From: an uncultured Gammaproteobacteria bacterium
GTDB taxonomy: Bacteria; Pseudomonadota; Gammaproteobacteria; Eutrophobiales; Eutrophobiaceae
Length of the DNA stretch: 64,000 nt
Reading direction: 5' to 3'
Assembly: GCA_943788815.1 (NCBI GenBank)
Contig: CALSRS010000002.1
Coordinates: 493,062-557,061, forward strand
Part shown: in pieces, positions 4,753 through 51,908 of the stretch
Position numbering within the stretch: position 1 is the stretch's first letter
Layout: each line of letters starts with the position of its first letter
The notes under the pieces: model-generated
The model's database searches: none
What the model was told of the DNA's origin: nothing
Seen by the model: the letters and a program-made list of their open reading frames with translations, nothing else
Program-made: the position numbers and the translations under genes

Positions 4753-4755
4753 CTA

Positions 4756-4849
4756 TGAGGTGTGAGGTGTGAGGTGTGAGGTGTGAGGTGTGAGGTGTGA
4801 GGTGTGAGGTGTGAGGTGTGAGGTGTGAGGTGTGAGGTGTGAGGTGTGA
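4756..4849 (+). repeat. exact tandem heptanucleotide array, TGAGGTG x 13
   Basis: Thirteen perfect copies of TGAGGTG run from 4756 to 4846, followed by a partial TGA. The array starts just after the stop of the DUF2007 gene, with the purine-rich strand in the coding orientation. As 7 is not a multiple of 3, successive TGA triplets occupy all three frames. Such a uniform array is probably length-variable between strains. Confidence 0.97.
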
Positions 4850-4919
4850 CAAAATTTTGTCCTTAACCTCTTATTAATCAACACATTTTTTTCAACGTTA
4901 ATCCCTTAACGAACTGACA

Positions 4920-4947
4920 CTTCACTCCTCACGCCTTACTCCTCACG
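4920..4947 (-). repeat. degenerate heptad repeat (4 units) at the peroxiredoxin 3' end
   Basis: Units CTTCACT, CCTCACG, CCTTACT and CCTCACG are consecutive. The reverse complement is GTGAGGA-like, on the coding strand of the peroxiredoxin gene whose stop is at 4953. Together with the array at 4756 it forms an inverted pair between two convergent genes. Confidence 0.85.
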
Positions 4948-4965: not shown

Positions 4966-5435
4966 AATATATAATCTGCTGAACTAACCTTAAATTCTCC
5001 GGCCTCTTCAACATGCAACTGGCTGACAACACCATCATCTATAACCAGGGCAAAACGCTGTCCTCGGGTGCCCATACCAAAACCACTGGCATCCAGTTCC
5101 AGCCCCAGTGCCTTTGCATATTCACCATTACCATCTGCCAGTAATTGGACATCATCTCCTGCGCCAGCTTGCTCACCCCATGCGCCCATGACAAAGACAT
5201 CATTTACAGACATGCATGCAATAGTATCGACACCTTTAGATTTTATGTCACCGGCCTTTTCAATAAACCCGGGCAAATGCTCCTTTGAACAGGTTGGTGT
5301 GAAGGCGCCCGGCACAGAAAAAAGTACGACTTTTTTTCCTGAGAATATTTCGCCAGTACTTACAGCGCCCGGGCCATCAGATTTCATTATTTTAAAAACG
5401 CCATCAGGCATCTTGTCTCCAACACTAATAGTCAC
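4953..5435 (-). CDS. peroxiredoxin, Prx5-type
   Basis: This 160-residue thiol peroxidase has the peroxidatic cysteine in PGAFTPTCSKEHLPGF (Cys about residue 49), the Prx5 family signature, and lacks the C-terminal glutaredoxin domain found in some homologs. Further Prx5 hallmarks are DTIACMSVNDVFVMGAWG and RGQRFALVIDDG. It reduces hydrogen peroxide and organic hydroperoxides in the cytoplasm using thiol donors. It stands alone on the minus strand, convergent with the DUF2007 gene. The ATG at 5435 is preceded by a GGAGG-type ribosome site (CTGGAGGATGATG). Confidence 0.95.
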   Translation of the reverse strand: MTISVGDKMPDGVFKIMKSDGPGAVSTGEIFSGKKVVLFSVPGAFTPTCSKEHLPGFIEKAGDIKSKGVDTIACMSVNDVFVMGAWGEQAGAGDDVQLLADGNGEYAKALGLELDASGFGMGTRGQRFALVIDDGVVSQLHVEEAGEFKVSSADYILENL

Positions 5436-5514
5436 ATCATCCTCCAGTTAAATTTCATAATATTTTTTCGTGAATAAAAAGTATAACCAATTTCATACCA
5501 AAATGTTTACCAAG

Positions 5515-7011: not shown

Positions 7012-7051
7012 AAGTTATAAAAACCTGACTCTTTTTTTCTGGTAAAATCCC

Positions 7052-7085
7052 CTCCCTGGATATAATAATAACGAAAACCAGGGAG
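7052..7085 (+). promoter_or_regulatory. inverted repeat flanking a -10-like box upstream of aceE
   Basis: CTCCCTGG (7052-7059) and CCAGGGAG (7078-7085) form 8-bp inverted arms 18 bp apart. The consensus -10 hexamer TATAAT lies between them at 7061-7066. No good -35 is seen 17 bp upstream (TCTGGT). The arrangement could be an operator around the aceEF promoter or an RNA hairpin in the leader. No match to the known E. coli PdhR site is evident. Confidence 0.4.
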
Positions 7086-7156
7086 TCTGGATTTCTTAAA
7101 ACAACTTCAATATCTTACATAAAGTTTATCATTAATAAGAAGACGATGGTGTAACC

Positions 7157-9817: not shown

Positions 9818-11409
9818 TGAGTAAGCTCATTGAAATCAAAGTCCCCGATATTGGTGATTTCAAAGAAGTTGAAATCATTGAAATCCTGGTATCTCCTGGC
9901 GATGTAGTACAGGTAGAAGATTCTCTGATCAGCCTGGAAAGCGATAAGGCGACAATGGAAATTCCGTCATCGGCTTCAGGTACGGTAAAAGAAATAAAAG
10001 TAAATGTTGGTGACATGATCTCAGAAGGTAGTGTAATTTTGCTACTGGAAGCTATCGAAGAAAAAACCAGCACAAAGAAAAAAGATAAGGCCTCCAAGGA
10101 CAAAAAATCAGAGCCTGTCAGCAGTGAAAAGGAAATCCTTCTACCTGACGTTGGTGATTTTAAAGAAGTGGAGATCATAGATGTTTTAGTCAGTGAAGGA
10201 GATGTGGTTGAGGTTGAGACATCAATCATATCACTGGAAAGTGATAAAGCCACCATGGATATCCCGTCACCCTATGCCGGTACCATAAAAAAACTGCTTG
10301 TCAAAAACGGCGACAAGGTCTCAGAAGGTAGTCCAATTGCGATCATACTCGCGACAGATTCTGATAATACTGATCAAGAAGATAAACAGGCGTCCACCTC
10401 AACGGTTGAAGCTACGCCCCAGGCAACGACGGAGTTAAAGAAACCTCGACCAGTTTCTCATCCAGCTGTACAAGCGGCTGGTCCTGTCCTGTCAGGTGCT
10501 GGCGGAGTTCCACATGCCAGCCCGTCAATTCGAAAATTTGCTCGAGAGTTGGGTGTTGATTTATACCGGGTCCAGGGATCAGGGAGAAAAGGAAGAATAG
10601 TTCGTGACGATGTCACAGCATTTACCCGATCAGTTATGGCTGGTCAGGGTGGTGTAGCCAGTCACTGGGCACTGGATTTATTTGAAAAACCGGATATTGA
10701 TTTCACTCAGTTTGGCGAAACGGAAAATGTTAAACTTTCCCGCCTAAATAAGCTTTCCAGTCAAAATCTACATAGAAGCTGGATAAATATTCCTCATGTT
10801 ACTAATTTTGATGAAACTGATGTAACTGAGCTGGAGAAATACCGGGGGTCTAAGAAAAAAGAAGCCGAAAAGCATGGCACTAAACTCACTATCTTAAGCT
10901 TTCTTATAAAGGCTGCTGTTGCTGTACTTAAGCGATACCCGAAATTTAATTCCTCTCTTGCTCCCAACGGTGAAGAATTAATACTCAAAAAATATTACAA
11001 CATCGGATTTGCTGTAAATACGGATGCGGGACTGATGGTACCTGTAATAAAGAATGCGGATGAAAAAGGTATCTATGACCTGGCCCTGGAACTTGCTGAC
11101 CTGGCCAACAAGGCTAGAAACAAAAAACTGCCGCCTTCAGATATGCAAGGTGCCTGTTTTACCATTTCCAGCCTGGGTCATATTGGTGGCACCGGGTTTA
11201 CCCCCATCATTAATCCACCAGAAGTCGCGATCATGGGCGTATCAAAAGCTAGTTACAAACCGGTTTATATTGATGGAAAATTTGAACCTCGACTCATACT
11301 GCCCTTTTCACTCTCCTACGATCACCGTGTTATTGATGGCGTCGCTGCAGCTGAATTTACTCGGGCCATTGGTGAAGTCCTCTCGGATATAAGAGAACTC
11401 ATATTGTAA
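9817..11409 (+). CDS. aceF: pyruvate dehydrogenase E2, dihydrolipoyllysine acetyltransferase
   Basis: A 530-residue E2 with two N-terminal lipoyl domains, each with the lipoylated Lys in ESDKATMEIP (about residue 45) and ESDKATMDIP (about 150). A flexible linker leads to a peripheral-subunit-binding domain (HASPSIRKFARELGVDLYRV, about 228-265). The C-terminal acetyltransferase core has the catalytic SYDHRVIDGV motif. It transfers the acetyl group to CoA. E. coli has three lipoyl domains, so two is a moderate difference seen in many relatives. No lpd (E3) gene lies next to it in the window. Confidence 0.97.
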   Translation: MSKLIEIKVPDIGDFKEVEIIEILVSPGDVVQVEDSLISLESDKATMEIPSSASGTVKEIKVNVGDMISEGSVILLLEAIEEKTSTKKKDKASKDKKSEPVSSEKEILLPDVGDFKEVEIIDVLVSEGDVVEVETSIISLESDKATMDIPSPYAGTIKKLLVKNGDKVSEGSPIAIILATDSDNTDQEDKQASTSTVEATPQATTELKKPRPVSHPAVQAAGPVLSGAGGVPHASPSIRKFARELGVDLYRVQGSGRKGRIVRDDVTAFTRSVMAGQGGVASHWALDLFEKPDIDFTQFGETENVKLSRLNKLSSQNLHRSWINIPHVTNFDETDVTELEKYRGSKKKEAEKHGTKLTILSFLIKAAVAVLKRYPKFNSSLAPNGEELILKKYYNIGFAVNTDAGLMVPVIKNADEKGIYDLALELADLANKARNKKLPPSDMQGACFTISSLGHIGGTGFTPIINPPEVAIMGVSKASYKPVYIDGKFEPRLILPFSLSYDHRVIDGVAAAEFTRAIGEVLSDIRELIL

Positions 11410-11865
11410 ATGGGAAGCCCTTCCCAACCGGATATTAAAGGCCGGTTTGCAATTAATGTTATAGAAAATAGTCGTAATGAATTACTGCTGTTAAAGCGGC
11501 ATGTAAATACGGAAATAGGCCCCGGTCTATGGGGTTTTTCAGCCGGGCATGTTGAGACGAATGAAACACCAGAACAGTGTTCACAGCGCGAGTTAATAGA
11601 AGAACTTGGCAATAATCTGGATCTTAGATTTCTCAAACAATTCGGCCCGTTCATGGATCGATATTATGGTGGTCATTATGAACTCTATTTATATCACTTT
11701 GCCTGGCTCGGTGGCTCCATCAGCTTGAACCATGAACATACGAAATTTATTTGGGTCTCTAAAGAGGAATTCCATAGTTACCCGGTCGTAGATGGCATTG
11801 ATGAAGATATTTTTTATCTTAATATCTGGCCATCTAAATACCTTAACCAGAAAAAACTACCCTAA
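11410..11865 (+). CDS. Nudix hydrolase
   Basis: A 151-residue protein whose ATG follows the aceF TAA with no gap, so it is probably translated by coupling. The Nudix box reads GHVETNETPEQCSQRELIEE and continues LG (about residues 46-68), fitting GX5EX7REUXEEXG. It hydrolyses a nucleoside diphosphate linked to another group. The substrate cannot be told from sequence, and weak similarity to isopentenyl-diphosphate isomerase-type Nudix proteins (YLYHFAWLGG, hydrophobic) is not enough to decide. The position behind aceEF could suggest clearing a CoA- or nucleotide-type by-product, which is inference only. Confidence 0.88.
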   Translation: MGSPSQPDIKGRFAINVIENSRNELLLLKRHVNTEIGPGLWGFSAGHVETNETPEQCSQRELIEELGNNLDLRFLKQFGPFMDRYYGGHYELYLYHFAWLGGSISLNHEHTKFIWVSKEEFHSYPVVDGIDEDIFYLNIWPSKYLNQKKLP

Positions 11866-16228: not shown

Positions 16229-17724
16229 CTTTTTTTAGGCCGCATATGCGGGAATAAAATTACATCTCTAATCGTAGGTGAATCAGTGAGTAGCATTACC
16301 AGACGATCTATACCTATTCCTTCGCCAGCTGTAGGCGGCATTCCATATTCTAGTGCTGTAATGTAATCAGCATCATAATGCATGGCTTCGTTGTCACCAG
16401 CCTCTTTGCTTTCAACCTGTTTTTTAAATCGCTCTGCCTGATCATCAGGATCGTTGAGTTCAGAAAATCCATTGGCGATTTCCCTGCCACCTATAAATAG
16501 TTCGAAACGATCTGTTAGAAAGGGATTTTCATTATTACTGCGGGCAAGGGGTGAGACTTCCTTTGGATAGGCGGTAATAAAAATGGGATCGGCAAGTTTG
16601 CTCTCAACTGTTTTTTCAAAAATTTCTATTTGTATTTTTCCCAATCCAAAATTTTCTTCATATGGAATTTCCAGTTTTTTAGCTGTGTTTCGGATTCTTT
16701 CCAGGTCATTAATGTCATCTTCATTTAATCCTGAATTAAATTTCAGTATGGATTCAAAAACTGACATTCTTGCAAACGGCACACCTAGATCGTAACTTTT
16801 TCCCTGATAGCTTATGCTTTTTTCATTAAAAATATTTTCAACCAGTTTTCTCAACAGATCTTCTGTCAGGTCCATAAGGTCTTCGTAATCAGCATAGGCC
16901 TGATAAAACTCCAGCATACTAAATTCCGGGTTATGCCGTGGAGACAATCCTTCGTTTCTAAAACTCCGATTTATTTCAAATACCTTTTCAACTCCTCCCA
17001 CGACCAGGCGTTTTAAATACAATTCAGGGGCAATACGCAGGTAAAGATCCATATCCAATGCATTATGGTGTGTCTTAAATGGTCTTGCCGTAGCACCGCC
17101 AGGGACCGGGTGCATCATGGGGGTTTCCACCTCCACAAAGCCACACCCATCCAGGTAGCTGCGGATGTAGTTAATCGTTTTAGAACGTATGGAAAATACC
17201 TTACGGGTTTCATCGTTGGTCATCAGGTCCAGGTAACGCTGACGATATCGCGTTTCCTGATCCGTCAGTCCATGAAATTTTTCCGGTAAAGGACGTAATG
17301 ACTTAACCAGGATGGTGAATTCCTCCACATGGATGGAAAGTTCACCGGTTTTGGTAACAAAAAGTCTTCCTTTAATAGCAAGAATATCGCCAAGATCACA
17401 CTGTTTGAAATCATTGTAGGTTTCTTCGCATACATCATCCTTGCGCACAAAGATCTGTATTTGTCCTGACATATCCTGGAGGTGTGCAAATGAAGCCTTG
17501 CCCATAATTCGGCGAGACATCATTCTGCCTGCAATTGAGACCTGTATTTTTTTCTCATCAAGGTCTTCTTTTGCGCTCTCGCCATACTTGTCATGAAGTT
17601 GTCCTGCGAGGGAGTCACGTTTAAAGTCATTTCGATAAGCTACACCTGCATCACGTAGTGTCTGTAGATGTTCTCTACGCTGCGCGATTAATTCATCTTC
17701 GGTACTGTGATTATCATCAGTCAT
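16219..17724 (-). CDS. lysS: lysyl-tRNA synthetase, class II
   Basis: The 501-residue class II enzyme charges tRNA-Lys. An N-terminal OB-fold anticodon-binding domain (about residues 55-160) includes [19 protein letters not shown]. The catalytic domain has motif 2 in [20 protein letters not shown] and motif 3 in [11 protein letters not shown]. The protein has normal bacterial length. It follows prfB on the minus strand, the usual order in gammaproteobacteria, with a 172-bp gap. Confidence 0.98.
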
Positions 17725-17896
17725 ATTGATATTTATATTTGGTTAAAGATTTATATACTCTGTAATGTCATTGATTATATCGGCATAAACTAAAAATATT
17801 TTTTGACTTAACTAACATTATATATACTTATATGTAGCTGTAATTCTTGTTAAGCCTGTCTATTTTGTATCGTCACTTACTATTACTTTATACTGA

Positions 17897-18995
17897 TTAA
17901 ACTCCCGCCTTTAAACTTGCTTCAAGGAACTTGTCCAGATTTCCGTCTAATACTGATTGGGTATTGGTCATTTCCACATTCGTCCTTAAGTCTTTGATTC
18001 TGGACTGATCCAGGACATAAGATCTAATCTGACTTCCCCATCCAATATCAGCTTTACTATCTTCAAGTTTTTGTTGTTCTGACATTCGTTCGTGCATTTC
18101 CATCTCGTATAATTTAGCCCGTAATTGTTTCATAGCATTATCACGATTCTTATGCTGAGACCTGTCATTTTGACATTGTACGACAATCCCCGAGGGGTTA
18201 TGCGTAATTCTTACCGCGGAATCCGTTTTATTAACATGCTGACCACCTGCTCCACTGGCACGATAGGTATCGACACGTAAGTCTGCAGGATTAATTTCTA
18301 TAGAGATATCATCATCAATTTCTGGTGAGACAAAGACAGAAGCAAACGAGGTATGACGTCGGTTACCAGAATCAAATGGGGATTTTCTTACCAGGCGATG
18401 GACGCCTGTTTCCGTACGCAACCAACCAAATGCATATTCACCCGTCAATTTTATTGTCGCGCTCTTGATCCCCGCCACTTCACCTGCTGAAACTTCAATA
18501 AGATCCAAAGTGTAGTCGTGCTCTTCGCCCCACCTCAGATACATCCTCAATAGCATTTCTGCCCAATCCTGGGCCTCGGTTCCTCCTGAACCAGATTGAA
18601 TATCTAAAAATGCATTATTTTCATCCATTTCGCCGGAAAACATCCTGCGAAATTCAAATTCCTGGAGTAAAGATTCCATCGCATCCAGGTCATGATCTAC
18701 AGCGGCAACTGTATCAGCATCGTTATCTTCTTTGGCCATCGCGAGTAATTCTTCGGCATCCTCAATTCCCGAGGATAACTTTTGAATTGTCTCCACCATT
18801 TTCTCCAGGTTTACCCTTTCTTTTCCCAGTTTCTGGGCACGGTCTGGGTCATTCCATATGGAAGCTTGTTCAAGTTCGCGGGTGACTTCAATCAGGCGCT
18901 CTGCCTTTACATCAAAGTCAAAGATACCTCCTGAGAGAGTCTGTCCTTTCTTTGATATCTTTTGTTCTTGAAATTACAGAGGTTATTTCCAACAT
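17897..18995 (-). CDS. prfB: peptide chain release factor 2, with programmed +1 frameshift
   Basis: RF2 recognises UGA and UAA stop codons. The coding sequence is in two frames. It opens at the ATG at 18995 ([15 protein letters not shown]), runs to an in-frame TGA at 18918-18920, then shifts +1 to read [16 protein letters not shown] onward. The shift site reads AGG AGG TAT CTT TGA C, matching the classic Shine-Dalgarno-like stimulator and slippery CTT TGA C. The decoded product is about 365 residues. It carries the tripeptide SPF in [10 protein letters not shown], which defines RF2, and the catalytic GGQ in GAGGQHVNK. Low RF2 slows termination at the TGA and favours the shift, giving autoregulation. 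It lies between recJ and lysS. Confidence 0.97.
18918..18932 (-). promoter_or_regulatory. prfB: prfB +1 programmed frameshift site
   Basis: On the coding strand AGGAGG (18932-18927), TAT, CTT and then TGA (18920-18918) followed by C reproduce the conserved RF2 recoding signal. The reading frame before and after is coding, and nothing else explains the TGA. Confidence 0.97.
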
Positions 18996-38736: not shown

Positions 38737-40632
38737 TTACAACCCTTCTTGTTCATAGGCTACCCTGCCACCGACCATAGTAAACACTGGTTTTAAATTG
38801 GTGATCTCCTCGATGGGGACATCTAGCAGGTTGCCATTAAAGATGACCAGGTCTGCCATCATCCCTGCTTGTAAAGAACCGAATTCATCATCTGCATCGA
38901 GAAACCTGGCAGCCCAGCGTGTCAATGCCAAAAAGGCCGTCTTACGATCCAGTGCTTCTTCCGGCGCAATCACTCTGCCTTGTGAATCCATCCGAGTTAC
39001 TGCTTTTTGTATATACCAGGTAGGAAAGCCGCGATTTTCACCAGGTTCTGTTCCCTCGATATGGAACTGAATGCCGTTATCCATGATAGATTTTAATGGT
39101 GCGATACGTTTGAGTCCTTCATATCCATACTGGGCTTCAAACACATTCGTGATCCCAAGTGGTTCTGCATCACGCTGATTAATCATGGTTCCAAGATTTA
39201 CTCCGAAACGGATCAATGCTTTCAATTCTGGGTGGGCGTTGTAATAGTCAAAGACCTCCTGCACCCAATCAATATTGTGGTCAAATCCCTGAGGACGAAA
39301 TAATTTACTTACATATAACTTGTCCTGGTTTTCTGCTTCATAGACATTCTGCATGGCTAATCTTATTCCTTCACTGCCACGGTTATGAATTCCAGTAACA
39401 TTCCACCCGTGCTGACGTGCCAGCATCACATTATGAAAATCCGTTTGGCGCTTTTGAGATTCTGTCAGGTCGTCATGGCTCAAACCAGTAAACCATTGTG
39501 CGGTCCATCGATTATAACCATTGGTATTGGGACTGATATTCGGAATGATAGTCTCCTTGGGTTCAATTGACAGCAGGCTGGCTGCGGCATCCTCTGATCC
39601 TGTGTGTGGTCCCACTGCGGTACCGACTATAGTAATCATCTCACCGCGATCATCAGACAGGGAAAAATCCACCAAATTACCAATACGTTTTAAAAACATC
39701 TCTCCATTAGGATTTTGCATCATAAAATCCAGCCCCGGGTAGACCCGGATGGCAAGTTCATCATTTTGCTCATGGAACATTCTATTTAAGACTGTCATGG
39801 TCGCAGCACTCATGTGACCTGTGGCCAGTGTTACACCATGCCTGGCATAGTTTGCCAACGACTCAACTGCCATGGGCATGGCGACTTCGTCAAACCAGAT
39901 CGGTTCAGGCCAGGGACGGACCTCTCGACCAATGAAACCATTTAGATGCGCACCCGAAACGCCGGTGGGATTTCCTGCATCATCCCGATCCAGGTGAAAA
40001 TGGTCCGCAGGAAATCCTCTATCAATTGCCAGATTCACCATTGCGGTATTCAACAAACCATAGCTACTATCCAGATAGATCATCACAGGATTATCCGGCG
40101 CAACTTCGTCCAGTTCAGATATTCCCCAGGATTTCATCGCAACCGCCGCCCACTGATCCTGGAGATTAAAGAACATGGGCTCTCCTGGTTGGCCCTGTGT
40201 TTGAACAATATGCCCCAGTGTCAACAATGCCTGGTCTATCGTACCGCCTCCCAGTTTGGGTTGCATGCGCCCACCCCACTGGCTGTCCTTAATTAAATCA
40301 CCTGCCGGGACAGAATTATCACCGTCATTATAGACAAAGCCAGGAGTTAGTGATCTGCCACGAAGGTCAATAGACCGAGTTGCGGGTCCAGCCAGTCTAC
40401 GAATTTCCGTATCACTTCCTACCTTAAGAATCCGATTACCACGCACGGCAACTGCCTGAGCAACTGTAAAATCAGGAGTGTCGCTATCTGCAGTGAGCAC
40501 CTGTCCATTATAAAAAACATATTCTGGGTAATGGACCAGCTCTTGCGGGATATTACTGGTTTGTGAAAAAACAAATCCTGATTTGAAAAATAAAAAACTG
40601 AATACAAAAACGATGACTTTTTGATTTGTCAT
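38737..40632 (-). CDS. exported amidohydrolase-like protein, paralog 1
   Basis: A 631-residue protein with a signal peptide (MTNQKVIVFVFSFLFFKSGF, cleaved near VFSQ). It follows the YtcJ-type amidohydrolase layout: a beta-sandwich start (VFYNGQVLTAD), PGFVYNDGDN, GHMSAATMTVLNRMFHE, GWNVTGIHNRGSEGIR, then GSLQAGMMADLVIFNG near the C-terminus. The HxH metal motif expected after PGF is YNDGDN, and the late GSDAP Asp region is HIEGTEPGE, so the usual binuclear metal site is missing. GGAGG lies before the ATG. It is the last of four tandem paralogs on this strand. Confidence 0.85.
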   Translation of the reverse strand: MTNQKVIVFVFSFLFFKSGFVFSQTSNIPQELVHYPEYVFYNGQVLTADSDTPDFTVAQAVAVRGNRILKVGSDTEIRRLAGPATRSIDLRGRSLTPGFVYNDGDNSVPAGDLIKDSQWGGRMQPKLGGGTIDQALLTLGHIVQTQGQPGEPMFFNLQDQWAAVAMKSWGISELDEVAPDNPVMIYLDSSYGLLNTAMVNLAIDRGFPADHFHLDRDDAGNPTGVSGAHLNGFIGREVRPWPEPIWFDEVAMPMAVESLANYARHGVTLATGHMSAATMTVLNRMFHEQNDELAIRVYPGLDFMMQNPNGEMFLKRIGNLVDFSLSDDRGEMITIVGTAVGPHTGSEDAAASLLSIEPKETIIPNISPNTNGYNRWTAQWFTGLSHDDLTESQKRQTDFHNVMLARQHGWNVTGIHNRGSEGIRLAMQNVYEAENQDKLYVSKLFRPQGFDHNIDWVQEVFDYYNAHPELKALIRFGVNLGTMINQRDAEPLGITNVFEAQYGYEGLKRIAPLKSIMDNGIQFHIEGTEPGENRGFPTWYIQKAVTRMDSQGRVIAPEEALDRKTAFLALTRWAARFLDADDEFGSLQAGMMADLVIFNGNLLDVPIEEITNLKPVFTMVGGRVAYEQEGL

Positions 40633-40883
40633 GCCTGCCTCCGCTAATAATTATTTATTTTATAATTAGATACTAGTCGCTTCGGACGTCCTGTCCTCGA
40701 CTTTGGCTCCTCGAACGTTGTTCCAGACACGTTTCTAACTCCTCCATCCCTGGAGTCGTGCGTCGTTCTCGGTCTTCGTTCCAGGCGCGACTCTACCGAT
40801 TCCATCCATGTAAGCGTCTCGCGACATTTCCCACATCCTGTGGGTCGCTTTCGCCAGTATGACGACTATTCAAATATAGTTTT
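40633..40883. repeat. repeat-bearing gap between amidohydrolase paralogs 1 and 2
   Basis: This 251-bp gap has no gene. It holds a second copy (40763-40801) of the repeat at 21984, a hairpin CCCACA/TGTGGG at 40831-40845, and the half-palindrome GCCAGTATGACG near 40853. The other paralog gaps are only 34 and 18 bp, so this one appears to have received an insertion of repeats. Confidence 0.7.
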
Positions 40884-42764
40884 TTATAATTCAGGCGCTT
40901 CAAAAGCAACCTTGCCACCTACCATAGTAAAAACCGCATTTAAATTTGCAAGATCTTCTATGGGTGTTTCCATAATATCGCCATTAAAAATCACCAGGTC
41001 TGCCAACATGCCTGCTTGAATTGACCCTAGTTGAGTATCACCGATAAACCTTGCGGGCCAACGAGTTAATGCTAGAAATGCTTCTTTGCGGGTTATGACC
41101 TGGTTTGCTGCAATCACACGCCCATCACGATCTTTTCGGGTCACTGCTTGTTGGATTTTTCTTAATGGATTACTGGGACCACTACCTTCAATATGAAATG
41201 GTACTCCTTTTTGTCTAATCATATTCAATGGCGCCATTCGTTCCAAACCTGCCATTCCCCATTGTGCTTCTGTGAGCCGTTCTATACCAAGAGGTTCAGA
41301 CGAACGTTGGTCGACACCATTGGTGAGACTAACGGCAAAACGAACGAGATTCTTATCTTTTAATTCCGGGTGGGCATCATAATATTCGAAAATCTCATCC
41401 ACCCATTCGATATTGTGGTCGAATCCATGAGGTCGCCATAATTCTTTGACGTACAGGTTTTCCTGTTGCTCGGCCTCGACGACGTTTTGCATGGCAAGGC
41501 GTATGCCTTCACTGCCCATATTGTGGATACCCGTGACATTCCAGCCATGTTGTCTTGCCAGCATGACATTGTAGTAGTCAGTTTGACGTTGTTGTTCCGG
41601 TGATAATTCACCCTGACCAAGACCCGTGATCCATTCTGCGGTCCAACGATTATCACCCCGGGGGTTCTGACTCAATCCATCAATTACATTATCTTTGGCG
41701 TCGATAGAGAGCAGGCCTGACATCCCATCGGGGGTGCCGGAGTGCGGTCCTACTGATGCACCAACTATCGTCACCATGGGGCCGCGATCATCGGTAAGTG
41801 AAAAATCAACCAGATTCCCCATACGCTTTAAGTACATCTCACCATTGGGGTTTTGCCTAAGAAAATCCAGGCCGGGATAGACACGAACCTTTAGATCATC
41901 TGGTTGTTCATGGAACAAACGGTTAAGAATCGTCATAGTGGGTGCGCTCATATGTCCCGTGGCTACAGTGATCCCGTAACGGGCATAATCTGCCAGGGAC
42001 TCTATCGCACCAGGCACAGCAACGTCATCAAACCATATGGGATCAGGCCACGGACGAACTTCCCTTCCGATAAATCCTGCCACCTGGGCACCGACCCTGC
42101 CGGTAAATTCGCCATTTTCATCTTTTTGGAGATGAAAATGTTCGCTAGACAATCCGCTTTCAAAGGCAAGTTCCAACATGGCCGTGTTCACCAGGGCCTC
42201 ACTGCTTTCCAATGAAACCAGGACAGGGGTATCCGGTGCCACTTCATCCAGGGTGTTTTTGTCCCAAATTTTCATGGCAGTACCTGACCAGGTATCCTGC
42301 AAATTAAAAAATACCGGGGCACCATCCTTACCTTCATTATCAACAATGAATGCCAGCGTAGCGAGAGTCTGATCTATAGTCTCACCCCCCAGATGTGGAT
42401 GAGTTACTCCACCCCACTGACTATCCTTTAAAATGTCACCCGCAGGCACGGCATTATCTGCATCGTTATAAATAAAGCCTGGTGTCAATGAACGTCCGTT
42501 TAAATTAATGACACGAGTATTGGGGCCTGACAGTGGTCGAATTTCACTGTTATCTCCGACCTTAAAGATACGATTTCCACGAACTGCGACGGCTTGGGCA
42601 ATTGTAAAATTCTCATCAGCATCAGCAGTGAGCACCTGACCATTGTAAAAGACAAATTCTGGATAATGCACCAGTTCTGATGGGACATTAGACTGGGCAA
42701 ATACCGACCCGCAGTAAAGAGAGATTATGAATACCCTCGATAGGATAGCTCGATTGAATGACAT
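40884..42764 (-). CDS. exported amidohydrolase-like protein, paralog 2
   Basis: This copy reads MSFNRAILSRVFIISLYCGS with cleavage near VFAQ, 626 residues. An ATG 25 codons upstream is open but would spoil the signal peptide; the ATG at 42764 has GGGAG at proper spacing. The conserved blocks are PGFIYNDADN, GHMSAPTMTILNRLFHE, GWNVTGIHNMGSEGIR and FHIEGSGPSNPL. As in the others, the HxH and late Asp metal ligands are absent while His in GIHN and FDHN remain. It is most like paralogs 3 and 4 in the GHMSAPT segment. The substrate is unknown. Confidence 0.85.
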   Translation of the reverse strand: MSFNRAILSRVFIISLYCGSVFAQSNVPSELVHYPEFVFYNGQVLTADADENFTIAQAVAVRGNRIFKVGDNSEIRPLSGPNTRVINLNGRSLTPGFIYNDADNAVPAGDILKDSQWGGVTHPHLGGETIDQTLATLAFIVDNEGKDGAPVFFNLQDTWSGTAMKIWDKNTLDEVAPDTPVLVSLESSEALVNTAMLELAFESGLSSEHFHLQKDENGEFTGRVGAQVAGFIGREVRPWPDPIWFDDVAVPGAIESLADYARYGITVATGHMSAPTMTILNRLFHEQPDDLKVRVYPGLDFLRQNPNGEMYLKRMGNLVDFSLTDDRGPMVTIVGASVGPHSGTPDGMSGLLSIDAKDNVIDGLSQNPRGDNRWTAEWITGLGQGELSPEQQRQTDYYNVMLARQHGWNVTGIHNMGSEGIRLAMQNVVEAEQQENLYVKELWRPHGFDHNIEWVDEIFEYYDAHPELKDKNLVRFAVSLTNGVDQRSSEPLGIERLTEAQWGMAGLERMAPLNMIRQKGVPFHIEGSGPSNPLRKIQQAVTRKDRDGRVIAANQVITRKEAFLALTRWPARFIGDTQLGSIQAGMLADLVIFNGDIMETPIEDLANLNAVFTMVGGKVAFEAPEL

Positions 42765-42798
42765 AGGATACTCCCGTGATACCGTGATGAGGCGTTCG

Positions 42799-44673
42799 TT
42801 ATAGTTCAGGTGATTCAAAGGCAACCTGCCCACCCACAAGGGTAAGGACAGGCTTTAATTCATGAATATTTTCTATAGAGACATCCATGATATCTCCATC
42901 AAATACTACTAAATCTGCAAGGTGGCCCACCTGTATAGAACCCATAACATTTTCTGCACCAATAAACCGCGCGCCCCAACGAGTCAGTGCCAGAAATGCC
43001 GATTCTCTGCTTAATGATTCTTGAGGTGCAATCACTCTGCCATCATCATCCAGGCGCATCACCGCCATTTGTATTTTCCGTAATGGATTACTGGGGCCGC
43101 TGCCCTCAATGTGAAACTTGATGCCCTTGTCCTGCAGAGTCTTCAATGGTGCTGACCTTTCCAGCCCTTCCATACCATACTGGGCTTCGAGTACATTTTT
43201 TATACCCAGTGGTTCTGCATCACGCTGACGGATAAAGGTTTCTATGCTCACACCAAAGCGGATTAATTCTTTTAATTCTGGTCTTGCCTCATAGTATTCA
43301 AATACTTCTGGCGCCCAATCCACATTATGATCAAATCCCTGGGGACGCCATAGCTTCTTAACATATAGCTTCTCCTGTTTTTCCGCTTCTGCCACATTCT
43401 GCATGGCAAGACGAATGCCTTCACTACCCCGATTATGTATCCCGGTGACGTTCCAACCATGCTGGCGTGCCAGCATGACATTATAATAATCCGTCTGTAA
43501 CTGCTGTGCGCCAGTCAAGTCACCTTGCGATAATCCGGTAAACCATTCAGAAGTCCAGCGGTTATAACCATTGGTATTGGGACTGATATCAGGAATGACA
43601 TTTTTCTTCGGGTTGATTGAGAGCAGGCTGGCGGCAGCATCTTCTGATCCTGAATGCGGTCCAACGGACGCGCCGACGATGGTAACCATTTCACCTCTAT
43701 CATCGCTAAGTGAAAAATCAACCAGATTACCCATTCGTTTTAAATACATCTCACCATTGGGATTCTGCCTGAGAAAATCCAGACCGGGATAGACCCTGAT
43801 GGCAAGGCCTTTCGGGTTTTCATGAAACAACCGGTTTAATACCGTCATGGTCGGCGCACTCATATGCCCGGTGGCAAGAGTGATCCCATTGCGGGCATAA
43901 TTCGTCAGTGATGCAACGGCATCCGGCATCGCCACATCATCAAACCAACGAGGATCAGGCCAGGGACGAACCTCACGACCAACGAATCCTACTAATTGCG
44001 CACCGGCGACACCGGTATAATCACCTTCGGTATCACGATCAATGTGAAAGTGATTGGCAGGAAAACCACTTTCAATAGCAAGGTCTATCATTGCTGTATT
44101 CATGATTCCATAACTGCTGTCCAGATAAATCGCCACAGGGTTCTCAGGCGCCACTTCATCCAGGGTATCTATGCCCCAGGACCGCATGGCCACAGCGGCC
44201 CATTGATCCTGCAAATTGAAAAATACCGGGGCACCGGGGTCAGTCTCGTTCTCTACGATGTAGGCCAATGTTACCAGTGCCTGGTCAATGCTCTGCCCTC
44301 CCAATTTTGGCTGTATCATGTTCTGCCACTGGCTTTCCTTGAGAAGGTCACCTGCTGGAACGGCATTATCTCCGTCGTTATAAATAAAACCTGGTGTTAG
44401 AGACCGTCCGTTCAGGTTTATTGCCCTGGTATCCGGACCGGTAAGTCGACGTATCTGTGAATCGGTCCCGACCTTAAATATTCTGTTGCCCCGGACTGCC
44501 ACTGCCTGGGCCACCGTAAAATTTTCATCTGCATCCGCAGTGAGTACCTGGCCATTATAAAAAATAAAATCTGGATAATGGACCAGCTCTTCAGGGATGT
44601 TTTGTGCAAATGTATTACTGTAAATAAGAAATCCAATGGATAACTTAAGAACTGAGATTAAAAGTTTATTCAT
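42799..44673 (-). CDS. exported amidohydrolase-like protein, paralog 3
   Basis: A 624-residue copy with signal peptide MNKLLISVLKLSIGFLIYSN ending TFAQ. The block around residues 94-103 is TPGFIYNDGDN where active amidohydrolases have an HxH. The C-terminal part has FHIEGSGPSNPLRKIQMAV in place of a metal-binding Asp region. His residues in GIHNRGSEG and FDHNVDW are retained. TGGAG precedes the ATG. It starts 34 bp before paralog 2 and ends 18 bp after paralog 4, so 4, 3 and 2 are likely one transcript. Confidence 0.85.
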   Translation of the reverse strand: MNKLLISVLKLSIGFLIYSNTFAQNIPEELVHYPDFIFYNGQVLTADADENFTVAQAVAVRGNRIFKVGTDSQIRRLTGPDTRAINLNGRSLTPGFIYNDGDNAVPAGDLLKESQWQNMIQPKLGGQSIDQALVTLAYIVENETDPGAPVFFNLQDQWAAVAMRSWGIDTLDEVAPENPVAIYLDSSYGIMNTAMIDLAIESGFPANHFHIDRDTEGDYTGVAGAQLVGFVGREVRPWPDPRWFDDVAMPDAVASLTNYARNGITLATGHMSAPTMTVLNRLFHENPKGLAIRVYPGLDFLRQNPNGEMYLKRMGNLVDFSLSDDRGEMVTIVGASVGPHSGSEDAAASLLSINPKKNVIPDISPNTNGYNRWTSEWFTGLSQGDLTGAQQLQTDYYNVMLARQHGWNVTGIHNRGSEGIRLAMQNVAEAEKQEKLYVKKLWRPQGFDHNVDWAPEVFEYYEARPELKELIRFGVSIETFIRQRDAEPLGIKNVLEAQYGMEGLERSAPLKTLQDKGIKFHIEGSGPSNPLRKIQMAVMRLDDDGRVIAPQESLSRESAFLALTRWGARFIGAENVMGSIQVGHLADLVVFDGDIMDVSIENIHELKPVLTLVGGQVAFESPEL

Positions 44674-44691
44674 AACTTACTCCAGTTATTG

Positions 44692-46602
44692 TTAAAGCTC
44701 AGAGGATTCATAAGCCACCTTACCACCCACCAGGGTCAACACCGGCCTTAAACTGTCCAGTGACTCTATGGGTTCATCCAACAAGTTTCCGTCAAAGACC
44801 ACCAGGTCAGCAAGCATACCTGGTCGCAAGGCCCCCAATTCATTTTCAGCGCCAATAAATCTTGCCGCCCAGCGGGTTAGTGCCAAAAATGCGGTCTCGC
44901 GATCCAGGACTTCAGTTTCAGCGATCACCCGACCATGCCTATCTATGCGTGATACCGCCTTTTGGATATACCAGGCGGGATTGGCATCCCCGTCTCTTGG
45001 CTCGGTACCTTCAATGTGAAACGGTATGTTGTTATCCAGTAATGTCTTTAAGGGTGCCATGCGCTCAAGACCTTCCATGCCATACTGAGCCTCGACTACG
45101 TCCTGTATATTCAGAGGTCCTGCATCCCTTTGTCGCATTACTATACGCAGGTTCACACCAAATCGAACTACGTCTTTCAAGACGGGATGATTTTTGTAAT
45201 AGTCAAAGACTTCCGGTACCCATTCAATGTTGTGGTCAAATCCCTGAGGTCGCCAGAGTTTTTTAACATACAGCTTGTCCTGTTGTTCGGCCTCATAGAC
45301 ATTCTGCATAGCAAGCCGGATACCTTCGCTACCCATGTTATGAATGCCTGTCATATTCCAGCCATGTTGCCTGGCCAGCATGACATTATAGTAATCTGTC
45401 TGTTTAAGTTGATCTGCTGTTAGATCATCAATACCCAGTCCGGTAATGGATTCTGCTGACCAACTATTGTATCCATTTGTATTGGGACTGATTTGCGGGA
45501 TCACCTTAGTCTTGGGATTGATAGTCAATAGCCCAAAAGTGGAATCAGGGGAACCAGAATGCGGACCAACAGAGGCTCCTACAATAGTAATCATGGGACC
45601 ACGATCATCGCTAAGGGAAAAATCTACGAGGTTACCCATACGTTTTAGATACATTTCGCCATTGGGGTTTTGTCGCAAGAAATCCAGGCCGGGATAGACA
45701 CGCACCGCCAGGTCATCGGGCTGTTCATGAAACAGCCTGTTTAAAATAGTCATGGTCGGCGCACTCATGTGACCGGTGGCAACTGTTACCCCATGTCTCG
45801 CATAATTTGCCAGTGATTCCACAGCCTGAGGCATTGCGACCTGGTCAAACCACTCAGGATCCGGCCAGGATCGAACTTCGCGACCGATAAATCCGCTGAC
45901 CTGTGCACCTGTGTATCCTGTAAATTCTCCGTTCTTATTGCGCCCGATATGAAAATGGTCCACGGGGAGGCCATTGGCAATGGCAAGATCCAGCATGGAC
46001 TGATTAGCGAGTGCGATATTGGCACTGATATACACCATTACCGGGTTGTTTGGAGCAACTTCATCTAATGTCTCCCGGTTCCAGGATTTCATAGCCACGG
46101 CAGACCATTGATCCTGCAGGTTAAAGAAAAAGGGATCGTCGGGCTTCCCTTCATTCTCAACTATAAATGCCAGAGTTGCCAGGGCCTCATCAATTGTTCG
46201 GCCTCCCAGATGTGGTTTGGTATGGCCATTCCACATACTGTCTTTAAGAATGTCGCCAGCAGGGACCGAGTTGTCTCCATCATTGTAGATAAAACCAGGT
46301 GTCAGAGATCGACCTTTTAAATCAATTACTCTGGTGGACGGACCTGCCAGACGTGTAATTTGATCATTGTTTCCTACACTCAGGATTCGATTACCTCGAA
46401 CGGCAACTGCCTGTGCTATAGTAAAATCTCTGTCTGCATCCGCCGTTAACACCTGTCCGTTATGAAAGACATATTCCGGATAATGGACCAGTTCCATTGG
46501 GATGCCAGATTGCGCCAATACCATGCTTGAACTGGCATGTAAAACCAGCAATATGATCATCGTGTTTCTCATACTGGGTGCAATAAATGATAAATGTTCC
46601 AT
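44692..46602 (-). CDS. exported amidohydrolase-like protein, paralog 4
   Basis: The first gene of the array, 636 residues. It has a longer N-terminus (MEHLSFIAPSMRNTMIILLV) and a signal cleavage near VLAQ; ATG codons at residues 11 and 15 are alternative starts, none with a clear ribosome site. Blocks are PGFIYNDGDN, GHMSAPTMTILNRLFHE, GWNMTGIHNMGSEGIR and FHIEGTEPRDG, again lacking HxH. It is divergent from egtB with a 244-bp gap in which the promoter of the array should lie. Confidence 0.83.
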   Translation of the reverse strand: MEHLSFIAPSMRNTMIILLVLHASSSMVLAQSGIPMELVHYPEYVFHNGQVLTADADRDFTIAQAVAVRGNRILSVGNNDQITRLAGPSTRVIDLKGRSLTPGFIYNDGDNSVPAGDILKDSMWNGHTKPHLGGRTIDEALATLAFIVENEGKPDDPFFFNLQDQWSAVAMKSWNRETLDEVAPNNPVMVYISANIALANQSMLDLAIANGLPVDHFHIGRNKNGEFTGYTGAQVSGFIGREVRSWPDPEWFDQVAMPQAVESLANYARHGVTVATGHMSAPTMTILNRLFHEQPDDLAVRVYPGLDFLRQNPNGEMYLKRMGNLVDFSLSDDRGPMITIVGASVGPHSGSPDSTFGLLTINPKTKVIPQISPNTNGYNSWSAESITGLGIDDLTADQLKQTDYYNVMLARQHGWNMTGIHNMGSEGIRLAMQNVYEAEQQDKLYVKKLWRPQGFDHNIEWVPEVFDYYKNHPVLKDVVRFGVNLRIVMRQRDAGPLNIQDVVEAQYGMEGLERMAPLKTLLDNNIPFHIEGTEPRDGDANPAWYIQKAVSRIDRHGRVIAETEVLDRETAFLALTRWAARFIGAENELGALRPGMLADLVVFDGNLLDEPIESLDSLRPVLTLVGGKVAYESSEL

Positions 46603-46846: not shown

Positions 46847-48112
46847 ATGGATACCAAGGTAAAAAAATTACCTGGGCGCGAGCAATTAAAATTAGCGTAT
46901 TCCCAAGTCCGGGATTTTTCAGAACTGCTGTGTAAGCCACTTCAGCGGGACGATTTTCAGATCCAGTCTATCCCTCAAACCAGTCCACCAAAATGGCATA
47001 TCGCTCATGTGTCCTGGTTTTTTGAGACCTTTGTCCTTGCTGAATATCAAGCTAACTATCAGGTCTTTTGTGACAAGTATGATTTCATTTTTAACAGTTA
47101 TTACTATACCCATGGCAATATGCATCCTCGTACAAAACGCGGTTTGTTATCACGCCCTACTGTAGATGAAATTTTTCAATATCGACAATTCGTCGATGAA
47201 AAAATGCATGACTTAATTGATTCAGTAGATCAACTTCAATGGGAAGATATGACATTTCGAATCATACTTGGACTACATCATGAGCAGCAACACCAGGAAT
47301 TATTGCTCATGGATGTAAAGCATAACTTCAATTCTAACCCCCTGAAACCTGCATACCGAGAAGATCTAATTGCCCTCAAAGGGAATCAGCAAGAGCTAAA
47401 CTGGATTAAAATAGATGGAGGCATCAAAACAATCGGCAACCGTGGTGATGAATTTTGTTTCGATAATGAAACACCAAACCATGACGTTCTACTAAAACCT
47501 TTTAAGCTTGCAACTCGTTTCATCACCAATTCGGAATACCTGGAATTTATAATAGATGGTGGCTATTCCAATCCTGCCCTTTGGCTGTCAGATGGCTGGG
47601 CAAACATACAAACTCATGGCTGGAAGCATCCTTTGTACTGGTCTGCAGATGATGAAAACTGGCAACAATTTACCCTTGGTGGCGTTCGCGAACTTAATAT
47701 GGATGAACCAGTGTGTCATATCAGTTATTACGAGGCCGATGCCTTTGCCCGTTGGTCAGGTAACCGTCTTCCACTTGAATCCGAAATAGAGACTATGCTC
47801 CTTTCGAAACCAATAACTGGAAATTTTATAGAAGATGATTTACTGCACCCTGCTCCGACGACTGAAGAAAACCAGTGGTATGGTAATTTGTGGGCCTGGA
47901 CTTCCTCCCCTTACACGGCTTATCCAGGATTTAAACCCTTATCTGGAACTATGGGTGAGTATAACGGCAAGTTTATGTCAAACCAGATGGTCTTGAGAGG
48001 TGGTAGTTGTGTGACGTCTATTGACCACATCCGCCCATCTTACCGAAATTTTTTCTATCCTGATGAAAGATGGGCATTTACCGGATTACGACTTGCTGCA
48101 GATCTTGAATGA
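46847..48112 (+). CDS. egtB: ergothioneine biosynthesis sulfoxide synthase EgtB
   Basis: A 421-residue non-heme iron enzyme joining hercynine to a thiol donor with O2. The N-terminal DinB-like domain has HIAHVSWFFETFVL and HHEQQHQELLLMD, whose His residues are the likely iron ligands (H51 or H54, and the HxxxH). The C-terminal formylglycine-generating-enzyme-like domain ends VLRGGSCVTSIDHIRPSYRN. The gene is coupled to egtD by a 4-nt overlap (ATGA). No egtA or egtC is present, suggesting the version that uses cysteine directly, though that is inference. Confidence 0.93.
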   Translation: MDTKVKKLPGREQLKLAYSQVRDFSELLCKPLQRDDFQIQSIPQTSPPKWHIAHVSWFFETFVLAEYQANYQVFCDKYDFIFNSYYYTHGNMHPRTKRGLLSRPTVDEIFQYRQFVDEKMHDLIDSVDQLQWEDMTFRIILGLHHEQQHQELLLMDVKHNFNSNPLKPAYREDLIALKGNQQELNWIKIDGGIKTIGNRGDEFCFDNETPNHDVLLKPFKLATRFITNSEYLEFIIDGGYSNPALWLSDGWANIQTHGWKHPLYWSADDENWQQFTLGGVRELNMDEPVCHISYYEADAFARWSGNRLPLESEIETMLLSKPITGNFIEDDLLHPAPTTEENQWYGNLWAWTSSPYTAYPGFKPLSGTMGEYNGKFMSNQMVLRGGSCVTSIDHIRPSYRNFFYPDERWAFTGLRLAADLE

Positions 48113-49606: not shown

Positions 49607-50376
49607 TGGACATCACTATCGAACTTTTAGAAAAGGTCTTTTCCAGAAATGGTCTTATAGTTGCATTTGCCGCAGTTGGGCTGATTACATGGTTTTCCTA
49701 CTTTTTGTCTAACAAACTAACGCATGGACGTATTCATGGCTCTGCTATTGCCATAACGCTTGGACTGGTTGCAGCCTACATAGGTGGTAAGGCCACCGGT
49801 GGCAGCACAGGTGTTGCCGATATTGGCCTTCTGGCCGGTGTGGGTTTTATGGGCGGCGGCATGATGCGAGATTTTGCCATCGTCTCAACCGCCTTTGGGG
49901 TCCACATAGGCGAACTTAAAAAAGCCGGTATTGTTGGAATAGTATCAATATTTGCAGGGGTAATAGTCTCATTTATTGTAGGCGCTGTTGTAGCAGTAAT
50001 GTTTGGTTATACAGACGCTATTAGTATCACCACCATAGGCGCAGGTGCTGTTACCTATATCGTCGGCCCAGTCACCGGTACTGCCATAGGTGCAAGCTCA
50101 GACGTAATAGCACTTAGTGTTGCAGCGGGACTTGTGAAATCTATTTTGGTGATGATAGGAACCCCTATGGTTGCAAAGTATATCGGGTTAAATAATCCTC
50201 AATCAGCTATGGTATTTGGCGGCTTAATGGGAACCACCAGTGGAGTTGCTGGAGGATTGGCTGCAACGGATCCCAGACTGGTACCTTATGGAGCAATGAC
50301 CGCAACCTTTTATACAGGCGTAGGTTGCCTAATGGGCCCATCAATTTTGTTTCTTATCGTCAACGCAATTTATTAA
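49606..50376 (+). CDS. madM: malonate transporter subunit MadM
   Basis: A 256-residue membrane protein with about seven helices, the second malonate transporter subunit. Glycine-rich stretches such as LLAGVGFMGGGMMRDFAI and TTIGAGAVTYIVGPVTGTAI are typical. It is translationally coupled to madL and followed by a gene encoding an acyl-CoA synthetase, which suggests that imported malonate is activated as malonyl-CoA. Confidence 0.93.
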   Translation: MDITIELLEKVFSRNGLIVAFAAVGLITWFSYFLSNKLTHGRIHGSAIAITLGLVAAYIGGKATGGSTGVADIGLLAGVGFMGGGMMRDFAIVSTAFGVHIGELKKAGIVGIVSIFAGVIVSFIVGAVVAVMFGYTDAISITTIGAGAVTYIVGPVTGTAIGASSDVIALSVAAGLVKSILVMIGTPMVAKYIGLNNPQSAMVFGGLMGTTSGVAGGLAATDPRLVPYGAMTATFYTGVGCLMGPSILFLIVNAIY

Positions 50377-50402
50377 TCAATAAAGAGAAGAGTATTATTA
50401 TT

Positions 50403-51908
50403 ATGGAAAGCACCAAAGATACTTCACTACCATCATTCCACCATTTAAATGATGACCATTCTAAGGTCGCGTTAATCGAAGGGGATAATTCAACAAGCTA
50501 TTCTGATTTACACGCTCGGATTAACTGCATGGCGACTAACCTGCTTGATGGAAAGTCTGATCTCAACGAAGAAAGAATTGCCTTCTTGATGCCAGCCAGT
50601 CTGGATTACGTCACCATGTTGTTTGGTGTCTGGCGTGCAGGTGGTATTGCAGTCCCATTAAATGTGAGTTCTGCGTTGGCGGAACTGGAACATGCCCTTA
50701 CATGCGCTGGAGTAACTCGAGTGGTCGCCAATGGTGAATACAGTGAGAATATTTCAGATTTATGTGAAAAACTGAATATAAAACTGTCATCCGTAAATGA
50801 AATACTCACTGACAAGTCGGGCACATTACCCGAGATAAGCCTGGATAGGCGGGCAATGATACTGTTTACCAGTGGTACAACCAATAAACCCAAAGGGGTA
50901 GTCAGTACCCATAAAAATATCCGTGCGCAGATTACAACCTTAATTGAAGCCTGGGCGTGGGATTATGACGATACGATCCCACTGTTTTTACCGCTACATC
51001 ATATCCATGGAATTATAAATGTTCTGTGCTGTGGTTTATGGGCTGGTGCAAGCGTATCCCTGTTTCCGAAATTTGATATGGACAACATACTCAATGAGGT
51101 AGCAAGCAATAGTTATAACGTGTTTATGGCGGTGCCCACGATATACGTGAAAATGATCCAACACCTGGATACACTTGATGATGCAGATAAAAAATCCATT
51201 ACCAATGGATTCAGAAACATGCGCTTGAATATTTCTGGCTCTGCTGCCTGCCCCGTTAAGGTCTATAATCAGTGGCTGGAACTCACCGGGCAAGTATTGC
51301 TTGAACGATATGGCATGACAGAAATCGGCATGGCCATTTCTAACCCTTATGATGGCGAACGCCGGGCTGGAGCAGTTGGTATTGCACTACCCGGTGTAGA
51401 GGTAAGTTTGTTTGATGATGACGATAATTTATTAGATGAAGAAGACAAACCCGGTGAAATCCGCATCAAGGGTAACAATGTTTTTCTGGAATACTGGGGA
51501 AACAAGGAAGCCACCGAGGGTAGTTACAAGGACGGTTGGTTCTGCACTGGTGATGTTGCTGTGAAAGAAAACGGATATTATCGGATTATGGGACGTTCAT
51601 CGGTGGATATAATCAAATCCGGAGGATACAAACTTTCCGCACTTGAAATAGAAGGGACGCTGCTTACACATGATGACATCGCAGAATGTGCTGTCATTGG
51701 CTCACCGGATGAGATGTGGGGCGAAGCTGTCACAGCCTTTATTGGATTGAAGCCGGAAAAAACGATGGTTTATGAGGATTTAAAAGCCTGGTGTGATGGT
51801 AAAATGTCTCCTTACAAGATCCCAAAGCAGATTATCATCATTGATGCCCTACCTCGAAATGCCATGGGAAAGGTAACAAAGCCTGCATTAAAAGAAATGC
51901 TGCCCTAA
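50403..51908 (+). CDS. acyl-CoA synthetase, probable malonyl-CoA synthetase (MatB-like)
   Basis: A 501-residue ANL-superfamily enzyme. The ATP loop is ILFTSGTTNKPKGVVS, the mid motif is ERYGMTEIGMAISNPYDGER, and the hinge and C-terminal motifs are GWFCTGDVAVKENGYYRIMG and SGGYKLSALEIEG. The catalytic Lys is in NAMGKVTKP. The RYGMTEIGMA block and the position after madLM suggest that it activates malonate. The frame runs on upstream into madM, but the ATG at 50403 is used, with AGAGAAGAG before it. Other short acyl substrates are possible. Confidence 0.85.
   Translation: MESTKDTSLPSFHHLNDDHSKVALIEGDNSTSYSDLHARINCMATNLLDGKSDLNEERIAFLMPASLDYVTMLFGVWRAGGIAVPLNVSSALAELEHALTCAGVTRVVANGEYSENISDLCEKLNIKLSSVNEILTDKSGTLPEISLDRRAMILFTSGTTNKPKGVVSTHKNIRAQITTLIEAWAWDYDDTIPLFLPLHHIHGIINVLCCGLWAGASVSLFPKFDMDNILNEVASNSYNVFMAVPTIYVKMIQHLDTLDDADKKSITNGFRNMRLNISGSAACPVKVYNQWLELTGQVLLERYGMTEIGMAISNPYDGERRAGAVGIALPGVEVSLFDDDDNLLDEEDKPGEIRIKGNNVFLEYWGNKEATEGSYKDGWFCTGDVAVKENGYYRIMGRSSVDIIKSGGYKLSALEIEGTLLTHDDIAECAVIGSPDEMWGEAVTAFIGLKPEKTMVYEDLKAWCDGKMSPYKIPKQIIIIDALPRNAMGKVTKPALKEMLP

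Follow-up and report, generated by a model that had tools for sequence, protein, structure and literature searches.

Four tandem, putatively exported amidohydrolase-like proteins of an uncultured gammaproteobacterium carry an Asp-x-Asp pair in place of the His-x-His metal motif

A His-x-His (HxH) pair is taken as the active-site mark across the amidohydrolase superfamily. Departures from it occur in amidohydrolases of the membrane (renal) dipeptidase type, which carry HxD on strand beta1, where one His is kept and the Asp serves as a ligand. To our knowledge there is no case of an amidohydrolase in which HxH has become Asp-x-Asp (DxD). In the Pfam family Amidohydro_3 (PF07969), one enzyme that has been studied is a bile salt hydrolase from Bilophila, which is metal-dependent; its metal ligands are an Asp together with HxH (alpha), a pair of His (beta), and a Lys as the bridge, and each of the six Ala mutants of this set is dead (PMC13081902). 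Here, we describe four consecutive genes, W1 to W4, in a 64,000-nucleotide stretch of DNA, the window, from an uncultured Gammaproteobacteria bacterium (GenBank assembly GCA_943788815.1, contig CALSRS010000002.1, positions 493,062 to 557,061). Their products have the amidohydrolase fold and carry DxD where HxH is expected, a strictly conserved substitution with a single origin among the proteins compared. No HxH-to-DxD amidohydrolase was described in the open-access literature among the matches listed, and one may still be in print.

The four genes follow one another head to tail, all on the minus strand, and are transcribed in the order W4-W3-W2-W1. All are full reading frames, and each begins with a Sec-type leader, judged by eye; the mechanically called frame of W2 starts at TTG and is longer than the 626-residue version used here. 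Because the W4-W3 and W3-W2 gaps measure only 18 and 34 bp, at least the first three genes could form a single transcript, and the gap between W2 and W1 is 251 bp. W1 is 63, 71, and 69% identical to W2, W3, and W4, respectively, and the copies differ pairwise at 29-37% of their residues. Length and sequence of W1/W4 diverge from those of W2/W3 immediately after E531 (W4 numbering is used throughout). The loop after this position is frequently next to the substrate in such folds, and its differences would suit a division of substrates among the copies. The initial annotation had reported four consecutive minus-strand genes for proteins of about 624-636 residues with leaders and a YtcJ-type layout, all of which is borne out, together with a C-terminal GS(I/L)QxGxxADLV(I/V)F segment, which holds for three copies but not for W4, where GALRPG stands in place of GS(I/L)QxG.

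All four proteins score 82.9-92.0 bits with the Amidohydro_3 profile, whose cut-off is 29.7. For W4, AF2 modelling from the 36-sequence alignment A3 described below gave a mean pLDDT of 91.2 and a pTM of 0.89. The nearest solved folds are 3igh (Z 27.3, rmsd 5.8, 462 residues aligned) and 3icj (Z 27.2, rmsd 6.3, 451 aligned), both uncharacterised archaeal metal-dependent hydrolases, and the same two head the Foldseek list. Third in the structural ranking is imidazolonepropionase at Z 20.9, with prolidase and other amidohydrolase folds further down; the ranking excludes no fold. Because 3igh and 3icj are the top matches of the model, W1 to W4 are, by predicted structure, amidohydrolase barrels.

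The ligand columns were placed with two aligners, MAFFT and hhalign. A3 brings W1 to W4 together with 32 sequences from other genomes, the most distant of which is 38% identical to W4; these 32 come from a list of 38 relatives scoring at least 350 bits, the other six being fragments. With both aligners D108 and D110 fall on the HxH of beta1, and H421 and H457 fall on the later two His, on beta5 and beta6. When hhalign was run against a wider HxH set, a gap opened inside the DxD motif, which we read as a matter of gap placement. Eight residues, namely D108, D110, D117, K120, H278, H421, H457, and E531, are invariant in all 36 sequences, and H529 is kept in 35, with Asn in the locus L088 (titled Alphaproteobacteria). 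The three invariant His columns stand among 18 His in W4 and the single invariant Glu column among 34 Glu; W4 has no Cys. H278 lies on beta3, and H529 and E531 on beta8.

Two further hallmarks of Amidohydro_3 are absent or unconserved in these proteins, along with the missing HxH, and the beta5 and beta6 His are present. At the column of the bridging beta4 Lys (344), A3 has 21 Ser and 15 Ala. The column of the beta8 metal Asp corresponds to T533 in the MAFFT alignment (25 Thr, nine Ser, two Gly) and to E534 in the hhalign alignment (variable: Glu, Asp, Gly, Asn, Ser, or Lys), so that this Asp is not conserved whichever alignment is followed. The invariant carboxylate of the beta8 region is E531. 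A plain Asp-to-Glu switch at beta8 was rejected as an explanation, because E531 precedes the Asp by two columns in one alignment and stands opposite no residue in the other. The motifs first pointed out for the four proteins, PGF(I/V)YND(G/A)DN at the HxH place, FHIEG at the place of the late Asp, and the retained His of GIHN and FDHN, occur in every copy. HxH had, moreover, been described as lost; it is indeed absent from all four proteins, but it has been exchanged for an invariant Asp-x-Asp rather than deleted.

The same genome (G000, 3.2 Mb) provides a large set of paralogs for comparison. The Amidohydro_3 profile matches 72 stretches of it, several of which are pieces of one frame, and the loci extracted around matches, to which the comparison refers, hold 46 distinct frames of at least 180 residues. 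Full-length frames (>500 residues) number 33, eight with DxD and 25 with HxH; the later two His are present in 33/33 and HxH is kept in 25/25 of the HxH group. At the H529 column none of these 25 carries a His, and the beta4 Lys is restricted to one of them (L021), the other 24 being without it. In an unrooted tree of 15 DxD and 25 HxH proteins, the two groups are split by a long branch with 100/100 support, and one change suffices to explain the motif. The DxD of the four window copies is thus, on this tree, one inherited change and not four, and four independent losses of HxH are ruled out by the single clade. The initial annotation had argued from the recurrence of the substitution in four copies to a stable family trait. 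The trait stands, with the Asp pair in 36/36 sequences of A3, but its recurrence in four copies carries less weight than was claimed, since these share one ancestral change.

Side by side with this division, the HxH paralogs L009, L010, L014, L016, L038, and L103 form a clade with a beta3 His in which the beta8 Asp is apparently missing; the beta8 segment reads SEFG in four of the six and SQFG and GSFG in the others. This clade seems, from its alignment, to be a second, distinct departure from the standard site. The Amidohydro_3 expansion in G000 is very large overall, and its proteins are apparently mostly exported.

Orthologs of the window genes were placed in sister genomes. W4 has orthologs in the loci L074, L075, L076, and L077, W3 in L074:7969-9840 (support 100/100), and W1 in L075:7942-9867 and L077:7912-9837 (support 100/99). 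W2 is loosely placed in the tree; its 85-87% match in L074 consists of two frames (9910-10998 and 11110-11790), suggesting a pseudogene or an assembly error, and its probable ortholog in the sister genome G002 is interrupted by one TGA. Copy number at the place of the cluster is lowest in L076, with one, and highest in the window, with four. Ratios of nonsynonymous to synonymous change (dN/dS, omega) were obtained by the NG86 count. For W4 and its L074 ortholog, pN is 0.090 and pS 0.69, with omega about 0.05, and for W3 and its L074 ortholog, pN is 0.092 and pS 0.74, with omega about 0.03; both ratios are rough, synonymous sites being near saturation. They nevertheless point to strong purifying selection in the two ortholog pairs and bear out the claim of a stable trait as opposed to decay. 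Among the four copies themselves, the comparison first proposed, synonymous sites are saturated in all six pairs (pS 0.74-0.79), and omega is therefore reported for the ortholog pairs alone. The window copies are old paralogs that have been kept apart. Gene dosage, one of two reasons offered initially for the fourfold repetition, is disfavoured, since three of the four copies have intact separate orthologs in sister genomes and the copies diverge by 29-37%; several related ligands are the better guess.

We lean towards the view that W1 to W4 are working exported (periplasmic) hydrolases whose metal site has been rebuilt and is rich in carboxylates, a reading preferred because the lost ligands are replaced by invariant residues able to bind metal. 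The ancestral YtcJ-like metal site would have been rebuilt and not lost, through a swap of ligand types between neighbouring strands in which the His pair of beta1 and the Asp of beta8 gave way to an Asp pair on the former strand and to His/Glu on the latter. The exchange is proposed between these strands because beta8 adjoins beta1 in such a barrel. A site rich in carboxylates would prefer a harder ion (Mn2+, Fe2+, or Mg2+) over Zn2+, and water activated there may hydrolyse an ester, an amide, or a related bond. More tentatively, at somewhat less than even probability, the arrangement could represent an undescribed metal centre of the amidohydrolase superfamily, made up of DxD on beta1, His on beta3, beta5, and beta6, and HxE on beta8, which arose once by the beta1-beta8 ligand swap. 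With the same reserve, it may be used by an exported-enzyme branch scattered over uncultured bacteria.

The genes around the DxD copies bear on what such enzymes might act upon. In the window (Table 1), EgtB/EgtD-like genes, malonate transporter subunits, and the AMP-binding synthetase flank the cluster on one side and PAP2 and TauE genes on the other. Going upstream from the W4 ortholog, the first gene in L075, L076, and L077 is a homolog of the synthetase gene; L074 also has one divergently upstream, with four genes intervening. No homolog of the DinB_2 and FGE-sulfatase gene is present in the stretches read in L075-L077.

Table 1. Cluster genes and neighbouring genes, in window coordinates.
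Feature	Position	Strand	Remarks
W1, DxD amidohydrolase-like	38737..40632	-	631 aa; PGFVYNDGDN, GIHN, FDHN, FHIEG
W2, DxD amidohydrolase-like	40884..42764	-	626 aa from ATG; PGFIYNDADN
W3, DxD amidohydrolase-like	42799..44673	-	624 aa; PGFIYNDGDN
W4, DxD amidohydrolase-like	44692..46602	-	636 aa; PGFIYNDGDN; first in direction of transcription; modelled with AF2
DinB_2 + FGE-sulfatase protein, divergent neighbour	46847..48112	+	context; presumably EgtB-like; homolog beside W4 ortholog in L074
AMP-binding acyl-CoA synthetase	50325..51908	+	context

Other DxD genes of the genome adjoin genes for the transporter proteins TctC and TctA, cupins, and a LigXa-type Rieske protein, and homologs of the TctC/TctA genes stand beside DxD genes in L084-L087 and L097. 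Two other genes that recur as neighbours (L099:9768-11252 and 17332-18702) lack any Pfam match at E <= 1e-4; their products contain GHSTGG, which we read as an alpha/beta-hydrolase nucleophile motif, and are presumed to be exported hydrolases. Taken together, the neighbours of the DxD genes point to the processing of organic (perhaps aromatic) acids outside the inner membrane. If W1 to W4 are hydrolases, their substrates could be such acids or their esters or amides, processed there and then taken up by tripartite tricarboxylate transporters, and the paralogs may share out related substrates.

A small protein of about 90-155 residues is encoded beside many DxD genes, in several genomes. It combines a leader and a short motif of the type (V/I)DPxTGK(L/Y)xT with a low-complexity stretch and ends in a hydrophobic anchor; examples include L098:8592-9029, L098:17607-17879, L078:11331-11753, L082:2667-2975, and L092:7863-8213, among others. 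A DNA pattern for DPxTGK occurs at seven places in the genome (two for the reversed control), two of which encode the small anchored protein, and both of these adjoin DxD genes. By the motif pattern, none was found beside HxH genes in loci extending mostly 1.5 kb to each side; the pattern also had hits in L054-L056 to three proteins that are unrelated, and variants visible by eye in L082, L083, and L089 escape it.

Within the genus, matches to the window proteins occur in 5/5 genomes, with five to eight each, and in 0/48 other genomes of the family (E <= 1e-60; 5/53 overall), at most 23 candidates per genome being scored. A survey of relatives gave matches in 5/58 genomes at E <= 1e-80, with at most 21 candidates each. 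In the class sample (1/369) and the phylum sample (1/398), where at most three candidates per genome were scored, the source genome alone gave a match. A scan of a collection of 84,980 species returned 24 loci in 12 metagenome-assembled genomes (MAGs), titled Gammaproteobacteria (five), Proteobacteria (three), Klebsiella pneumoniae (two), Alphaproteobacteria (one), and Deltaproteobacteria (one); its patterns included TPG[FY]IY or GxHN and are biased towards the DxD clade, and four of the 12 probably correspond to four of the five genomes of the genus (G001-G004). Other genomes with a motif of the YND(G/A)DN type, which had been suggested as a search, were thus obtained with this biased scan: the Asp pair is readable in 11 of 12 MAGs, including the variants SDADN (L088) and IDSDGDN (L094), the twelfth (L097) being a partial piece without that stretch. 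The CAMBTO and CAMDWI records (L075, L077-L079, L087, and L093) are titled Klebsiella pneumoniae and match the genus of the window; these titles look wrong. A viral origin was rejected, seven pattern matches in viral contigs including no relative. Among plasmids 215 records match, none of which covers 80% of the query and all of which are below 60% identity.

Several observations weigh against a rebuilt, working site. As every canonical Ala mutant of the Bilophila enzyme, the one studied relative, is dead (PMC13081902), the absence of both His, the Lys, and the Asp could be enough to abolish catalysis. Glu stands in the E531 column of 14/25 HxH paralogs, so that it is not specific to the clade and is rejected as a new compensating residue, and His stands in the H278 column of six of 25 (L009, L010, L014, L016, L038, and L103); because HxH paralogs have them too, E531 and H278 alone show no compensation for DxD. 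The exact beta8 register differs between MAFFT (T533) and hhalign (E534), and the patterns used to collect A3 overlap the motif region in part, a bias towards proteins that have retained the motif. At the window cluster, no tripartite transporter gene was found among the flanking genes scanned, nor was the gene for the small partner; because this cluster is without one, the partner is not needed by every DxD copy.

The strongest competitor, in our judgement unlikely, is a pseudoenzyme, that is, a barrel without turnover acting as a periplasmic ligand-binding or scavenging protein that hands acids, for example, to a receptor of the TctC type. Four of the six canonical metal residues are gone, tandem copies fit a set of related ligands, and several DxD genes outside the window adjoin TctC-A-B transporter genes, although the adjoining TctC genes already provide a binding protein. 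Binding-site residues commonly vary among paralogs, whereas the old active-site positions carry three His, two Asp, and one Glu that are identical in all 36 proteins, the most distant being 38% identical to W4.

Less probable again is a calcium-type loop, in which D108-G-D110-N-x-V-x-x-G-D117 would form a DxDxDG-like element whose Ca2+ holds the end of beta1, with catalysis left to H421, H457, and E531, either metal-free or with a separate metal. At least 12 families are reported to bind calcium through a Dx[DN]xDG motif (PMC3123361). Within the loop of the DxD proteins, Asp occupies positions 3, 5, and 12 (D108, D110, and D117) in 36/36 sequences each, position 8 is Val, Ile, or Phe and position 13 Ile, Leu, Val, or Phe in 36/36, and L094 has an Asp at position 1 as well (IDSDGDN). 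Position 1, however, is Tyr in 35/36, position 9 is Pro in 35/36, and at position 6 Asn stands in place of Gly in 32/36. Tyr, Asn, and Pro at these positions are ill-suited to the loop consensus, and D108 and D110 occupy the place of the metal-binding HxH within the barrel. Ordinary decay, or a sequencing or alignment artefact, is highly improbable, for although one copy in the sister genome G002 has a stop, there are four full reading frames, the Asp pair recurs in 11/12 MAGs, matches occur in 5/5 genomes of the genus, and dN/dS is far below 1 in two ortholog pairs.

Split amidohydrolases were also observed in the same genome. They consist of a gene for an N-terminal part (about 204-266 residues) followed by one gene for a C-terminal part (439-470 residues), or by four in L100 (G000:C1:1358000-1368500; minus strand, 7898-8653, 6484-7887, 5008-6411, 3520-4932, and 2094-3494). 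Further pairs lie in L101 (two), L102 (4270-5070 and 2865-4259), and L104 (1796-2557 and 423-1742), giving five N-parts and eight C-parts in total. HxH was read in the N-parts of L100 and L102, and each C-part has its own leader, judged by eye. The arrangement looks like a two-piece barrel with separately exported chains, one N-part serving several C-parts. Free-standing frames of 467-481 residues that match a C-part occur in G001, G002, and G003 as well. Split exported amidohydrolases were not described in the open-access literature among the matches listed.

A DxD clade that retains the fold along with a complete invariant set of other possible ligands is a natural experiment in the rewiring of a metal site, and work on it bears on the role of some thirty full-length family proteins, most of them apparently exported, in one genome. 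Compared with Amidohydro_3/YtcJ-like proteins (3igh, 3icj, and the Bilophila enzyme), the window proteins are alike in whole-length fold and profile, the beta5/beta6 His, the C-terminal ADLV, and a barrel with a flanking sandwich, but differ in having DxD for HxH, no beta4 Lys, an unconserved beta8 Asp column, a fixed H278, and a near-fixed H529. The 25 HxH paralogs of the same genome share with them their length, the later His pair, Glu in the E531 column (14/25), and the lack of the beta4 Lys (24/25); unlike the DxD proteins, they have HxH (25/25) and no His in the H529 column (0/25), and they fall on the opposite side of the 100/100 branch. Calcium loops of the Dx[DN]xDG type (PMC3123361) have in common with the DxD proteins the placing of Asp at positions 3, 5, and 12, whereas the DxD proteins differ from them at positions 1 (Tyr), 6 (mostly Asn), and 9 (Pro). 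Among amidohydrolases, it is the HxD of the membrane dipeptidases that likewise departs from HxH on beta1; these enzymes keep one His there, and the window proteins keep none.

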